A stretch of DNA of 64,000 nt from Streptomyces sp. DHE7-1. GTDB taxonomy: Bacteria; Actinomycetota; Actinomycetes; Streptomycetales; Streptomycetaceae. The translations under genes were made by a program, and so were the position numbers. Below are positions 2,211 to 46,926 of the stretch, in pieces. The notes beneath the pieces were generated by a model, which ran no database searches, was not told the origin of the DNA, and saw nothing but the letters and a program-made list of their open reading frames with translations. The stretch covers positions 1,860,001-1,924,000 of the forward strand of contig JACJDG010000003.1 of the NCBI GenBank assembly GCA_016432725.1. The letters are read 5' to 3'. How positions within the stretch are numbered: the stretch's first letter is position 1; every line of letters begins with the position of its first letter.

Positions 2211-3739
2211 TCAGCGTTCCAGCAGGCCGTTGAACCGGCGGGGCAGTCCGAGCGGGTTGTCGTCGCGCAGTTCCCGGGGCAGCAGGGCCTCGGGCGCGTT
2301 CTGGTAGGCGACCGGCCGCAGCCACCGCTCGACGGCGGTGCCGCCCACCGAGGTGGAGGTGGAGGTGGTCGCGGGGTACGGGCCGCCGTGGTGCTGGGCC
2401 GGCGCCACCGCCACCCCGGTCGGCCACGCGTCGACCAGCACGCGCCCGGCCAGCGGAGTCAGCTCGGCCAGGATCTCCGTGCCCGCCCCTCGCCGGCGGC
2501 CTCGCCGGCCGACAGGTGGACCGTGGCCGTGAGGTTGCCCGGCAGCCGCGACAGCACGGCCGTGGCCTCGCCGTCGTCGGCGTAGCGGACCACCACGGTC
2601 ACCGGCCCGAAGCACTCCTCCAGCAGCAGGTCGTACGCCCCTTCGGCGGTCAGGCCGCGCGCCGGGACCGTCAGGAAGCCCGGGCTCACCGTGTGCTCGC
2701 CGCCCGCGCCCGGCGTGACCGGCGCCTCCACTCCCGGCAGCTGGGCGCGCTCGGCCACACCCGCGATGAAGTCGTCCCGCATCCGGTGGTCGAGCAGTAC
2801 CCCGGCGGCGGTGTCACCGACGGCGTCCGCCAGGGACTTCAGCAGCCGGTCGCCGGCGTCGCCGGACGGCACCAGCACCAGGCCCGGCTTGACGCAGAAC
2901 TGGCCGACGCCGAGGGTCATGGACCCGGCGAGCCCGGAACCGATCGCCTCGGCCCGCTCGGCCGCCGCCTCCTCGGTGACCAGGACCGGGTTCAGCGAGC
3001 CCAGCTCACCGTGGAAGGGGATCGGCACCGGACGCGCGGCGGCCGCGTCGAACAGGGCGCGCCCGCCGCGCACCGAACCGGTGAAGCCGGCGGCGGCGAC
3101 CAGCGGGTGCCCGATCAGCTCGACGCCCGCCTCGAAGCCGTGCACGAGGCCGACGACCCCTTCGGGGATGCCGTGTTCGGCGGCGGCCCGGCGCAGCACC
3201 CCGGCGACCAGCTCGGACAGCGCCGGGTGGTCGGGGTGGGCCTTCACGACCACCGGGCAGCCGGCGGCCAGCGCGCTCGCGGTGTCACCGCCGGCCACGG
3301 AGAAGGCGAAGGGGAAGTTGGAGGCGGAGTAGACGGCCACGACGCCCAGCGGCACCTTGTACCGGCGCAGGTCGGGGACCGGCGGGGTGGCGGTCTCGTC
3401 GGGGTGGTCGATGATCACGTCGAGGAAGGCGCCCTCGTCGACGATGCCGGCGAAGGCCCGCAACTGGTACACCGTGCGGGCGAGTTCCCCGGTGAGGCGG
3501 ACCGGCCCGAGGGCGGTCTCGGCGTCCGCGGTCCCGATCAGGCCGTCGGCGGCCGCGTCCAGGCCGGCGGCGGCCGAGCGGAGGAAGGCCGAGCGCACGG
3601 CGCGGTCGGCGAGGGCACCGCGCGCGGCGCGCGCCGCCCGGACGGCCGCGTCCACCTCCTGGGCCGTGGCCTCCGTCGCAACCTGCTCACGCTGCTTCCC
3701 GGTGCGCGGGTCGACACTCCAGACTGGTGCTGCTGCCAC
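2211..3739 (-). CDS. Alpha-ketoglutarate semialdehyde (2,5-dioxovalerate) dehydrogenase, frameshifted near C-terminus
   Basis: An NAD(P)+-dependent aldehyde dehydrogenase of the KGSADH group. It would oxidise 2,5-dioxopentanoate to 2-oxoglutarate, the last step of oxidative pentose, aldarate and hexuronate catabolism. Visible features are SNFPFAF (140-146), cofactor-binding lysine K166, base E245 in HGELGSLNP, and nucleophile C282 in GQFCVKPG. I chose GTG 3739 because a GGAGGG ribosome site lies 7 nt upstream. The frame breaks after AGEAAGEG at a G4 run (plus-strand CCCC, 2486-2489). The C-terminus, with GTEILAELTPLAGRVLVDAW and ending FNGLLER, follows in the next frame, giving about 509 residues. 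It is divergent from the IclR gene at 3870, a likely regulator. KdgD, Udh and the IlvD/DapA operon elsewhere in the window would feed it. Confidence 0.88.
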
Positions 3740-42771: not shown

Positions 42772-42939
42772 GGTGCCTCCCATGACCGACGTCAATGACC
42801 GTCCCGACTCATAGTGACCCATGTCGGCCGACTTGGACACAGGACCTTCGGCCACCGCCCGTACATGTCAGCGATGCTTATCAATACCTCGTAGGAGAAT
42901 TAAGTAGAGCTTCACCTTCGAGTTGCCGAGACTACCCGT

Positions 42940-43832
42940 ATGACGATCCGACGCAAGCCCTTCGGCCGCACACTCTGCGCGATGATCACCCCGTTCACCG
43001 AGGCGGGCTCGCTCGACCTGGAGGGGCCGCGCTGCTGGCGGACCGGCTGGTGGCCGGGGGCTGCGACGGGCTGGTGCTGAACGGCACCACGGGCGAGTCG
43101 CCGACCACCACGGACGCGGAGAAGGCGGAACTGATCGCGGCCGTCCGGGACGCCGTCGGCAACCGGGCCGCGCTGGTGGCGGGCGTCGGCACGGCGGACA
43201 CCCGGCACACGGCCGAGGGGGCCCGCGCGGCGGAGAAGGCGGGCGCCGACGGCGTGCTGGTGGTGACGCCGTACTACAGCAGGCCGCCGCAGGAGGCGGT
43301 GGAGGCGCACTTCCGGCAGGTCGCCGACGCGAGCGGCCTGCCGGTGATGCTCTACGACATCCCGGGCCGCACCGGCACCCGGATCGAGCCGGAGACGATG
43401 ATCCGGCTCGCCGGACACCCCCGGATCGTGGCCGTCAAGGACTGCTCGTACGACCTCCTCGGCACCCAGAAGGTGCTGGCGCGTACGGAACTGGCGTACT
43501 ACGCGGGGTGCGACGAGCACGTGCTCGCGCTGTACGCGGTGGGCGCGGCGGGCTGCGTGAGCACGGTCGCGAACGCGGTGCCGGGGCCAATCGCCGCCGT
43601 CCTGGACGCGTTCGACGCGGGTGACACCGCCCACGCGGCCGAACTCCAACTGGAGGCGATGCCGTTGATCGAGGCGATGACGGCCGCGGGCCTGCCCGGC
43701 ACGGTCACCGCCAAGGCCCTGCTCACCCGGCTCGGCCTGCCCGCCGGCCCGGTACGCGCACCCCTGCTCCCCGCCGGCCCGGAGACGGCCGATGCCCTGC
43801 GGGCACTGTACGACCGGCTCGTCGCCCCCTGA
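42940..43832 (+). CDS. dapA: 4-hydroxy-tetrahydrodipicolinate synthase (DapA), frameshifted
   Basis: A lysine/diaminopimelate-pathway enzyme that condenses pyruvate with aspartate semialdehyde. Motifs are GTTGESPT, VTPYYSRPP, MLYDIPGRTG (the conserved Tyr and Arg) and the Schiff-base Lys in IVAVKDCSYDL. The gene starts ATG 42940, MTIRRKPFGRTLCAMITPFT. The frame breaks at GGGG 43023-43026; one added G gives LDLEGAALLADRLVAGG and a protein of about 297 residues. The enzyme is expected to be essential or one of a small set of paralogues, which supports a sequence error. dapD lies 2 kb downstream on the other strand. Confidence 0.9.
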
Positions 43833-43976: not shown

Positions 43977-44210
43977 TCACCCGCCCGCCGCGCCCTCGTC
44001 CTCGCCGTCGCCCTCCCAGCGGAGCAGGTCGCCCGGCTGGCAGGCGAGTACCTCGCAGAGCGCGGCGAGGGTCGCGAAGCGCACCGCCTTGGCGCGGCCG
44101 TTCTTGAGTACCGCGAGGTTGGCCGGCGTGATCCCCACCCGGTCCGCCAGCTCACCCACGGACATCTTCCGCCGGGCCAGCATCACGTCGATGTCGACGA
44201 CGATCGGCAT
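43977..44210 (-). CDS. Small XRE-type helix-turn-helix regulator (YozG-like)
   Basis: A 77-residue Cro/CI-type protein: IDVMLARRKMSVGELADRVG then ITPANLAVLKNGRAKAVRF, and LCEVLACQPGDLL. The single HTH domain covers nearly the whole protein. It starts within the stop of the DUF2975 gene (TGATG, 1-nt overlap). This Cro/YozG-DUF2975 couple is common in actinobacteria and firmicutes. It presumably binds the twin palindromes at 44713-44750 and controls both genes. Confidence 0.88.
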   Translation of the reverse strand: MPIVVDIDVMLARRKMSVGELADRVGITPANLAVLKNGRAKAVRFATLAALCEVLACQPGDLLRWEGDGEDEGAAGG

Positions 44211-44701
44211 CAGATCACCTCGTCCAGCTCGGCCCGCATCCGCGACGCCTCGACGTCGCGCGCGACGGCCTGGACGAGCAGCATCCGCAGCACGAGCACG
44301 ATGAGCGCGACCCCGAGGACGGCCAGGCCGATCCCGGCCATGATGACGGTGACACCGGGGTCGGCCCGCTGACCCGGCGCGTTGATCGCCGTGACGGTGA
44401 ACCACAGCAGGGCGACCGCCACGATGGCGCCGATCACGCCGTCCACGTACCGGAAGGCCGCGTGGGAGAACACGGTTCCGCGCCGCACCATCGCCACCAA
44501 CCGCCACACGCAGAACAGCGCGACCTGGGCCGTCGCCATGCCCAGGATCGTGATCACGCGGAACGCGGTCAGCGGGAGCGACCCGTCCTCGGGATCACCG
44601 CCGCCGGCCAGCACCCACACCATCCCCGCCTGCACGAACACGGTGCCGGCGAGCACCACCACGAGCACGGCGCGCAACGCACGCACGGTCAGCTTTCCCA
44701 C
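44210..44701 (-). CDS. DUF2975 membrane protein
   Basis: A protein of 163 residues with four membrane helices (AVLVVVLAGTVFVQAGMVWV, FRVITILGMATAQVALFCVW, GVIGAIVAVALLWFTVTAI, VIMAGIGLAVLGVALIVLVL) and the RMLLVQAVARD segment. GTG 44701 with AAGGAC a few nt upstream is my choice; ATG 44716 is possible, but it would put the first residues inside the operator. It is coupled to the small XRE gene. The function is unknown, and in relatives the pair responds to envelope or development signals. Confidence 0.83.
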   Translation of the reverse strand: MGKLTVRALRAVLVVVLAGTVFVQAGMVWVLAGGGDPEDGSLPLTAFRVITILGMATAQVALFCVWRLVAMVRRGTVFSHAAFRYVDGVIGAIVAVALLWFTVTAINAPGQRADPGVTVIMAGIGLAVLGVALIVLVLRMLLVQAVARDVEASRMRAELDEVI

Positions 44702-44712
44702 AGGCCGTCCTT

Positions 44713-44750
44713 CCATCGAGATGCGATGGAAATCTATCGAGATTCGATAG
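44713..44750. promoter_or_regulatory. Twin 17-bp operators upstream of the DUF2975/XRE operon
   Basis: CCATCG-agatg-CGATGG (44713-44729) and CTATCGA-gat-TCGATAG (44734-44750) are perfect dyads. They share the pattern C(C/T)ATCGAGAT(G/T)CGAT, and their centres are 21 bp apart, two helical turns. This fits cooperative binding of two dimers on one DNA face just upstream of, or around, the start. Confidence 0.8.
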
Positions 44751-44842
44751 GCACGGCAAGTGCTCACGCACGAGGTCGGCACCGATCGCCGGCGACCCGG
44801 CGGGCACCCTTCCCGCGCCTGACGGCGTGGAGCGGGAACGGC

Positions 44843-45556
44843 TCATCGATCACCCAGGTGCACGGCGGACACCGCGTCCGCGCGAGTCCGCAGCGGCCGC
44901 AGCACCGCCATCCCGTCCTCGAGCCCGACCTTCATGGCGAAGTCGAACCGGTCGGCCTCCAGACACAACTCCACGTCGGCGAGGTGAGCCCCGCGGCGCC
45001 GCCCGTCGCGCAGGTCGTCCGCGGCCGGGGATGTGCGGGCACGGTGCAGATAGGGGCCGGGGTCGGGGCGATCCCCGGCGAGGAGCCGATCCAGGTACTC
45101 GGCGCAGGCCAGATCCTCCGCGGCGCGGCCGTCCTCGCCGGTGGCCACGAACGTCACCGGGCCGGCGCCGGCCTCCGCCAGGGCCCGGGCCGTCGCGCCG
45201 GCCACGACGAAACTGGCGCACAGCGCCCATTCCGCCTCGACCACCGCCAGCGCGCCGACCGTTCCGGCGGTGGTCTTCTGGATGACGGTGCGGCCGGCCA
45301 GGTCGGCCTCCCGGATCAGGCCAGGGGAGTTGACCAGGTCGAACCCGCTGACCGGTGCCCCGTCCTTGAGCGCGAGCCAGGCCGGGTGGCGGGCTTTGAT
45401 CTCCATTGCCTCGCCCTCGTCGGAAGCGAGAACGATCTTGTCCGCACCGCGATGGAAAGCCCATGCGGCGGTGGTGAACGCCCGCATCACATCGATCACG
45501 ACGGCCACCTGTTCGGTGCCGTCCAGGTCGGGGATTCCGACTACTCGCGAGTCCAT
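44843..45556 (-). CDS. 2-phosphosulfolactate phosphatase-family (ComB-like) protein
   Basis: A 237-residue ComB-family protein. The family start is [20 protein letters not shown], with [10 protein letters not shown] following, and [15 protein letters not shown] is the active-site loop. [19 protein letters not shown] matches the conserved acidic segment. In archaea ComB makes coenzyme M precursors. Actinobacterial homologues lack that pathway, so the substrate here is unknown. ATG 45556 gives the expected length. The gene is monocistronic. Confidence 0.83.
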
Positions 45557-45936: not shown

Positions 45937-46926
45937 TCAGTTGTGGCTGTGCAGGATGTCGTTCAGGCCGCCCCAGACCGCGTTGTTCGGGCGGGCCTCG
46001 ACCGCGCCGGTGACCGAGTTGCGGCGGAAGAGGATGTTGGAGGCGCCGTTGAGTTCGCGGGCCTTGACGATCTGGCCGTCGGGCATGGTGACGCGGGTGC
46101 CCGCGGTGACGTACAGGCCGGCCTCCACCACGCACTCGTCGCCGAGCGCGATGCCGACGCCCGCCTCGGCGCCGATCAGGCAGCGCTCGCCGATGGCGAT
46201 GATCACGTTGCCGCCGCCGGACAGCGTACCCATGGTGGACGCGCCGCCGCCGATGTCCGAGCCGTCGCCGACCACGACGCCCGCGGAGATGCGGCCCTCG
46301 ACCATGGAGGTGCCGAGCGTGCCGGCGTTGAAGTTGACGAAGCCCTCGTGCATCACCGTGGTGCCCTCGGAGAGGTGGGCGCCCAGGCGGACCCGGTCGG
46401 CGTCGGCGATGCGCACGCCCTTCGGGGCGACGTAGTCCGTCATGCGCGGGAACTTGTCGATCGAGGTGACCTGGAGGTGCAGGCCCTCGGCGCGGGCGTT
46501 CAGCCGCACCTTCTCGATGTCGTCCACGGCGACCGGGCCGAGCGAGGTCCAGGCGACGTTGGCGAGGTGCCCGAAGATGCCGTCCAGGCTCTGGCCGTGC
46601 GGCTTGACCAGGCGGTGCGAGAGCAGGTGCAGGCGCAGGTAGACGTCGTGGGCGTCGATCGGCTTCTCGTCCAGCGAGGCGATGACCGTACGGACCGCGA
46701 CCACCTCGACGCCCCGGCGGGCGTCCCGGCCGGTCGCCGCGGTCGCACCGGCGCCGAGCAGCTCCGCGGCCCGCTCGGCGGACAGCCGCTCGGTACCGGC
46801 CGGGCCGGGGTCCGCGACCAGCTCGGGGGCCGGGAACCAGGTGTCGAGAACGGTGCCGTCGGAGGCGATGGTGGCGAGGCCGGCGGCCACGGCACCGGTG
46901 GTGCGGGAAGCAGTCGTGTCGGTCAT
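45937..46926 (-). CDS. dapD: 2,3,4,5-tetrahydropyridine-2,6-dicarboxylate N-succinyltransferase (DapD)
   Basis: An actinobacterial-type DapD of 329 residues. It succinylates tetrahydrodipicolinate in diaminopimelate/lysine synthesis and forms a trimer by left-handed beta-helix. The helix is visible as hexapeptide-rich sequence ([60 protein letters not shown]). The N-terminal globular part begins [20 protein letters not shown]. The frame is intact and the length normal. It complements the dapA at 42940; the intervening ComB and DUF2975 genes are unrelated. Confidence 0.93.

Follow-up and report, generated by a model that had tools for sequence, protein, structure and literature searches.

A conserved twin operator over the promoter of a DUF2975-XRE gene pair suggests an autorepressor-plus-membrane-protein switch in Streptomyces and its relatives

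The CI and Cro proteins of phages lambda and 434 are helix-turn-helix dimers that bind 14-17-bp dyads about two turns apart, overlapping -35 and -10 elements, and thereby exert cooperative autoregulation. A different kind of partnership is found in Bacillus subtilis, where YoaS, which we take to be a DUF2975 protein, is paired with YozG. Pairs of an Xre regulator with a YoaS-like membrane protein were counted in 2009 (count 32) and marked as disregarded, since Makarova and colleagues considered membrane-protein/Xre pairs not to be toxin-antitoxin modules, as membrane components were not known from any type II system (PMC2701414, accessible text); neither an operator nor a promoter layout or a target for the pair is given in that accessible text. 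The SdpR-SdpI system of B. subtilis joins an autorepressor to a polytopic membrane protein that sequesters the repressor on a signal (PMC1626106, accessible part). In Streptomyces cacaoi, adjacent cppC (DUF2975) and cppD (HTH) genes appear as gene-table annotations in the BE-18257/pentaminomycin cluster (PMC7827011, accessible part). DUF2975 is otherwise scarcely named in the accessible text of the literature searched, and there as an annotation, and no description of an operator for a DUF2975-XRE pair was found in that literature, which consisted mostly of journals open without subscription.

The locus considered here lies in a 64-kb stretch of DNA, called the window below, and comprises two overlapping genes on the minus strand. 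The first (44210-44701; 163 aa, GTG start, stop codon TGA at 44212-44210) encodes a putative membrane protein of the DUF2975 family (PF11188, E 3.8e-26; 92 bits against a gathering cut-off of 27, with positions 22-130 of the 130-position profile covered) and is the single DUF2975 copy of its genome. The second (43977-44210; 77 aa, ATG at 44210) encodes a Cro/C1-type XRE regulator of the HTH_26 family (PF13443, E 1.8e-20; 73.4 bits against a gathering cut-off of 22), and its start shares one base with the DUF2975 stop (TGATG). This XRE protein does not reach the equivalog cut-off for VanU (NF000090; 28.4 bits against 150), and its comparison with solved structures gave one weak match (3tyr/3tys, E 2e-4). 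The first-pass annotation had placed the whole unit at 44210-44750, an interval that does hold the operators and the DUF2975 gene, whereas the XRE gene lies just outside it. Among the neighbors are a 2-phosphosulpholactate phosphatase-like gene (44850-45555, minus strand, PF04029), a dapD-like gene (45937-46926, minus strand, PF14789) and a DapA-like ORF (42795-43832, plus strand, PF00701), in which the first 80 residues are unmatched and the profile is entered at position 27, possibly because of a frame slip or a wrong start.

Directly upstream of the pair, two 17-bp dyads with a shared consensus can be read from the sequence as originally described. O1 (44734-44750, CTATCGAGATTCGATAG; minus-strand reading CTATCGAATCTCGATAG, that is CTATCGA-GAT-TCGATAG) is a perfect 7+3+7 dyad with no broken pair. 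O2 (44713-44729, CCATCGAGATGCGATGG; minus-strand reading CCATCGCATCTCGATGG, that is CCATCGA-GAT-GCGATGG) has the same 7+3+7 build and is imperfect, with six of seven pairs intact and one broken, so that the clean symmetry initially ascribed to both sites describes O1 better than O2. The dyad centers, at 44742 and 44721, are 21 bp or two helix turns apart. When the 17-mer consensus was searched through the window with up to three mismatches, O1 and O2 were the sole places found (three rows, one place being matched on both strands), against 0.22 expected by chance, and three rows were reached in none of 100 shuffles. The exact O1 core, TATCGANNNTCGATA, occurs once in the 8.14-Mb genome to which the window belongs, at this very locus. 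One further place matches it with one mismatch and 19 with two, and as the resulting total of 21 places stands against 14 for the reversed control, these weaker genomic sites are mostly background; the whole-genome search, at up to two mismatches, gave no evidence of a further regulon in this genome.

The expectation that the motif should recur in orthologous promoters was borne out. A protein scan with XRE, one genome being taken per species, brought up at least 544 relatives; the best 80 (84-98% identity) come from Streptomyces, Kitasatospora, Kutzneria, Nonomuraea, Cellulomonas, Parafrankia and others. An exact TATCGN5CGATA is present no more than 700 bp upstream of the XRE start in 77 of the 80 loci, which, as close relatives picked by XRE similarity, are not independent trials; two more carry it with one mismatch, and one locus (L047) has none. 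By comparison, 16000 Markov-shuffled upstream regions of 300 bp included a single one with an exact O1. The O2 core ATCGN5CGAT at +21 is exact in 69 of the 80 loci and departs by one mismatch in seven and by two in two (11 loci in all being without the exact core), and at offsets of 15-44 other than +21 no exact O2 core was found in any of the 80.

The same sites follow the regulator from genome to genome, and the motif proved as searchable as the first-pass annotation had foreseen. A search of 101 same-genus genomes found 47 copies of TATCGANNNTCGATA, spread over 44 of the genomes, against a single copy of the reversed control, and 46 of these 47 exact sites have an XRE homolog downstream. 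Where XRE is at least 85% identical, an exact site accompanies 42 of 49 genes; at 68-84% it accompanies none of eight, and below 68% four of 18. Six of the seven close XRE genes lacking an exact site have a variant one and the seventh (L169) has none. A 35-mer pattern describing the twin operator is found in 139 of 315 genomes and its reversed form in none, which makes the twin operator specific enough to find targets by search alone. Sixty further twin sites were fetched from the places listed, some 40 of them chosen for odd sequence or because their genomes had two sites. Fifty-three are accompanied by XRE, two (L223 and L238) by DUF2975 with no XRE detected, the L238 copy looking broken at its end, and five lack XRE and stand before a gene for a FAD enzyme, a number that, with about 40 of the 60 hand-picked, is not a rate.

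This FAD enzyme emerges as a candidate second target. The 47th exact site (genome G321), the one lacking XRE, lies 5' of a gene for a FAD-dependent oxidoreductase, together with a full copy of the promoter. The protein scores 129.7 bits against TIGR02032 (geranylgeranyl reductase family), below the NCBIfam cut-off of 158.8, and 59.7 bits against FAD_binding_3 (cut-off 22), and is by these scores a relative of the geranylgeranyl reductase family, not a filed member of it. The gene is rare, with 14 carriers, all of the same genus, at E <=1e-50 in 315 genomes, and was not found in the genome of the window. All 14 carriers show the linkage: in eight a stand-alone twin operator lies directly upstream of the FAD gene, and in six DUF2975, XRE and FAD genes follow one another in a row. 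O1 is exact in all eight stand-alone operators and the O2 core in seven; the operators of the six rows are exact in five and degenerate, with three mismatches, in G406. Each of the eight genomes with a stand-alone operator has a close XRE (86-91% identical) elsewhere, under a twin operator of its own with 0-2 mismatches; as close XREs occur in 47-48 of 101 genomes, eight of eight would be expected by chance at about 0.002-0.0026 if kinship is ignored.

Plasmids extend this picture. Four plasmid records with the FAD gene were compared, and two of them, which come from one S. angustmyceticus strain and are thus not independent, carry an operator with one mismatch before DUF2975, with the FAD gene further on. 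The Streptomyces sp. SGAir0924 plasmid (L293) bears at 2990-3420 an in-frame deletion fusing the N-terminus of DUF2975 to the C-terminus of XRE. Its order of exact operator, DUF2975/XRE fusion relic and FAD gene looks like an intermediate between the operon and the stand-alone FAD promoter. The FAD homolog of a Nonomuraea plasmid (L295, 65% identical) has no such operator upstream. It could be argued that the stand-alone operators are dead relics, left when DUF2975 and XRE were deleted from an ancestral DUF2975-XRE-FAD operon and devoid of any present regulatory role. L293 exhibits precisely such a deletion, with the fusion still lying behind the operator and before the FAD gene, but O1 and the O2 core have been retained almost throughout even though the FAD proteins are 13-26% different from the G321 one, and a close XRE in trans has been kept in every one of the eight genomes, albeit in lineages that are not independent; we consider this reading unlikely, and prefer that of a FAD gene still answering to the repressor.

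The distribution of the two proteins is uneven. An XRE match is present in 67 of the 101 same-genus genomes and in 180 plasmid records, part of which were checked for DUF2975; in a phylum-wide set of 296 genomes, DUF2975 itself was detected at E <=0.001 in 28, of which 19 lie above the family cut-off, and it is present in five of 14 control genomes, B. subtilis among them. Around the 80 close loci, no family of neighboring ORFs recurs in more than five (with a filter of GC3 >=0.82 and 90 aa, which could miss genes), so the DUF2975-XRE pair seems to move without fixed partners. Such patchiness, the plasmid matches and the lack of conserved neighbors, combined with a two-gene operon under autorepressor-like operators, would also be in keeping with a toxin-antitoxin-like addiction module in which DUF2975 is a membrane toxin and XRE its antitoxin and autorepressor. 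We hold this to be distinctly improbable: Xre/membrane-protein pairs, including YoaS-like ones, have been discounted as toxin-antitoxin systems (PMC2701414, accessible text), DUF2975 appears to be tolerated alone in L223 and L238, where XRE was not detected (with the reservation that the L238 end looks broken), linkage to a reductase fits regulation better, and PADLOC has no DUF2975 model.

Both dyads overlie a predicted promoter on the minus strand. Its elements are a -35 TTGCCG (44754-44759), a -10 TAGATT (44731-44736) placed 17 bp from it, a transcription start predicted from the -10 near 44724, within O2, and a Shine-Dalgarno sequence AAGGA for DUF2975 (44708-44712), which O2 abuts. O1 accordingly occupies the stretch between -35 and -10 and takes in the opening bases of the -10, with O2 lying over the predicted start. 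A strict consensus promoter scan of the locus found none, TTGCCG failing the scan rules, and the promoter call therefore rests on conservation in an alignment of the window with 77 loci (78 rows, selected for exact O1). TTG is found in 74 of the 78 rows, at -10 (69) or -11 (5) relative to O1, the usual promoter form being TTGC-N-N, 17 bp and TAGATT. TANNNT at +13 is present in all 78 rows and is TAGATT in 66, where the first TA belongs to O1 and is conserved by the choice of rows; the closing T of this predicted -10 is independent evidence. The GG of the Shine-Dalgarno sequence is kept in about 90% of the rows, and the flank lying some 15-70 bp ahead of O1 displays no conservation among them.

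A second version of this overlay is met in the more distant class B (XRE about 69-78% identical), for which 13 loci were examined. In twelve of them (L096-L099, L101, L170, L171 and L173-L177), about 450-540 bp upstream of XRE, O1 contains a -35 TTGA(C/T), and a GANNNT -10, which falls inside O2 wherever O2 is present, follows at a distance of exactly 17 bp; the layout is absent from L200. O2 at +21 shows two mismatches or fewer in nine of the 12, three in L097 and four in L098, and is missing in L101. An ATG follows the -10 by 6 nt in 10 of the 12, with an earlier ATG coming first in two, and the messages consequently look leaderless. The 21-bp spacing may not be dictated purely by the protein: in class B a 17-bp spacer with the embedded elements would give 21 bp by itself.

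These layouts bear on the direction of control. XRE might instead activate, bound at O1 in the spacer to remodel the promoter in the manner of MerR, with the membrane protein feeding back, and the position of O1 within a 17-bp spacer flanked by a -35 that is weak (TTGCNN) and a -10 that is good would agree with that; a dimer on O2, however, over the predicted start and part of the leader, would block RNA polymerase, the class B geometry with the -35 inside O1 and the -10 inside O2 is suited to occlusion, and the spacer has the optimal 17 bp, unlike the lengthened -35/-10 spacer of MerR-type promoters, all of which leaves activation highly improbable. Scarcely credible is the proposal that O1 alone is a protein site and that O2 acts in the mRNA as a hairpin masking the Shine-Dalgarno sequence for translational control, since, although O2 folds as an 8-bp hairpin touching that sequence (-14.4 kcal/mol, z -1.28), this z is a weak one, matched by 21 of 200 shuffles, an RNA begun at the start predicted inside O2 would lack the 5' arm, the half-site is the same as that of O1, and departures from O2 are mostly one-sided, as befits a protein site (pair 21/35 is C/C in 20 of 78 rows as opposed to T/A, possibly compensatory, in three). 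Repression by XRE bound at both sites remains the preferred interpretation.

Sites resembling TATYGN5CRATA also precede the DUF2975-XRE pairs of divergent subfamilies, whose XRE proteins are 51-79% identical to that of the window. The 21-bp spacing is retained in class B and in the near-identical L108/L109. Class C offers a spacing of 16 bp, with at most one mismatch, in ten places (L110, L111/L183, L124/L197, L180, L184, L185, L189, L192, L194 and L208) and of 15 bp in L182, while L114 and L117 have 18 bp. Five other class C loci (L181, L186, L188, L190 and L191) show TGTCGN5CGATA followed by TATCGN5CGATA at 34-35 bp and are candidates for a different, flanking arrangement. A TAGTCT-like -10 is seen between the two sites in L190 and L191. 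As spacings of 15-16, 18 and 34-35 bp do occur, the family as a whole does not need a fixed two-turn geometry. Many distant members, such as L113, L115, L116, L122, L125, L187, L193, L195, L200, L202 and L205, gave no convincing pair of sites. Outside the phylum, a single exact TATYGN5CRATA stands before the DUF2975-XRE pair on Priestia and Niallia plasmids and before XRE on an Enterococcus raffinosus replicon, where the ORF rule found no DUF2975 beside it, and a Providencia plasmid has a pair of sites 31 bp apart; the loci of Paraclostridium, Novosphingobium, Acuticoccus, Vibrio, Metabacillus and the NEB 577 plasmid have weak sites or none. The Paraclostridium bifermentans plasmid (L201, 266-1722) carries two tandem DUF2975 genes and a DUF3955 gene before one XRE. 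Judged from these comparisons, the operator code has good support within Actinomycetota, and outside them there is no more than a suggestion of it.

The membrane protein is less constrained, except at its very end. An AlphaFold2 model based on 47 aligned sequences (mean pLDDT 87.2, pTM 0.75) predicts four long helices at residues 3-33, 44-74, 80-107 and 115-162, the last running to the C-terminus. Foldseek with this model found nothing in the PDB at E <=0.001 (best 0.37), and the best VIA-align result (Z 8.5 over 77 residues) is in the range of common helical arrangements, so that neither permits a functional inference for DUF2975. The protein of the window terminates in a conserved ...AELDEVI, and distant DUF2975 proteins are only 10-20% identical to it, yet their C-terminus is constant. 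With a profile blind to the final 25 residues, built from members earlier picked by their last residue, an ORF was obtained for 149 of 156 loci, and its last residue is I, V or L in 148 of them. Among 63 non-redundant members, position -6 is E or D in 57, -9 is L, M, I or V in all 63 and -12 is A or G in 61. Where the gap to XRE is 6 nt or more, the last residue is still I, V or L in 34 of 35 cases; as the C-terminus is kept in pairs whose genes are separate, the overlapping XRE start does not account for it. So well kept a tail (ending E/D-x-D/E-x-V/T-I/V) in an otherwise free protein makes a contact likely, the partner kept beside it being XRE, and the tail could also have a role in folding or with another partner.

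Taken together, the pair appears to be an autorepressor-plus-membrane-protein switch, with a layout that recurs across dozens of relatives. The sequence itself shows the two dyads and how well they are conserved, the 21-bp spacing that close relatives keep exactly and the overlay on the predicted promoter; beyond this, we infer that XRE is the binder, with one dimer on each 17-bp dyad, and that it represses. The two adjacent dimers on O1 and O2 would face the same side of the DNA, two turns apart, and probably cooperate. Bound XRE would lie over the -35/-10 spacer, the -10 and the start site of the single sigma-70-type promoter and in this way shut it. Transcription from this promoter would yield the four-helix DUF2975 protein first and then XRE; being part of its own operon, the repressor would limit the amounts of both proteins. 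We are fairly confident of operator-based autorepression by XRE. The membrane step taken by itself is more tentative, and we rate it a little short of even: DUF2975 would most likely be a sensor or anti-repressor, whose cytoplasmic C-terminal tail may hold or release XRE at the membrane on an envelope signal and so relieve repression. Relief of XRE repression by sequestration, modeled on SdpR-SdpI, is the best reading by analogy, with which the conserved tail is only compatible. The association of the sites with both XRE genes and the FAD gene is, like the conserved tail, evident in the genomes compared, and in some relatives the same repressor would also control the geranylgeranyl-reductase-like FAD enzyme, in cis or in trans.

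It is tempting to generalize further, to a picture that we regard as speculative and rather doubtful. DUF2975 proteins may be widespread membrane receptors with a tail that docks a tiny XRE, and TATYG-N5-CRATA may serve as operator code throughout the class, in Actinomycetota, Bacillota and some Gammaproteobacteria alike, with spacing (15-16, 18, 21 or 34-35 bp) and the overlap with -35 and -10 re-set in each subfamily. Isoprenoid or quinone reductases would be among the outputs, for which reason the module may sense the lipid or quinone state of the membrane.

DUF2975-XRE pairs are common yet hardly studied, and the operator, the promoter, the second target and the candidate tail make the family testable. 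In comparison with the CI and Cro repressors of lambda and 434, the pair has in common a Cro/C1-type HTH and neighboring dyads about two turns apart over -35 and -10 elements, but it has two sites at one promoter, whereas the phages have three between divergent promoters. The XRE protein is moreover a 77-aa single domain and lacks a C-terminal domain for cooperativity, so that cooperative binding, if it occurs, must have another source. The likeness to SdpR-SdpI is that of a two-gene operon with an autorepressor and a membrane protein and serves as a functional model, no homology being claimed; the repressor comes first in sdpRI and the signal there is the SdpC toxin, whereas here the membrane protein is encoded first. 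SdpI is not known to be a DUF2975 protein, nor SdpR to be of the present XRE class. The cppC and cppD genes are the same kind of adjacent pair, annotated without any regulation being described in the accessible part of the source (PMC7827011). The closest parallel in protein content is provided by pairs of the B. subtilis yoaS-yozG type, a conserved gene pair of the same two families, from which the pair examined here differs in that its genes overlap, a twin operator is embedded in its promoter and a FAD enzyme is added in some genomes. The gene pair was thus already known in 2009, and the defined operator and the second target are, as far as found, new.
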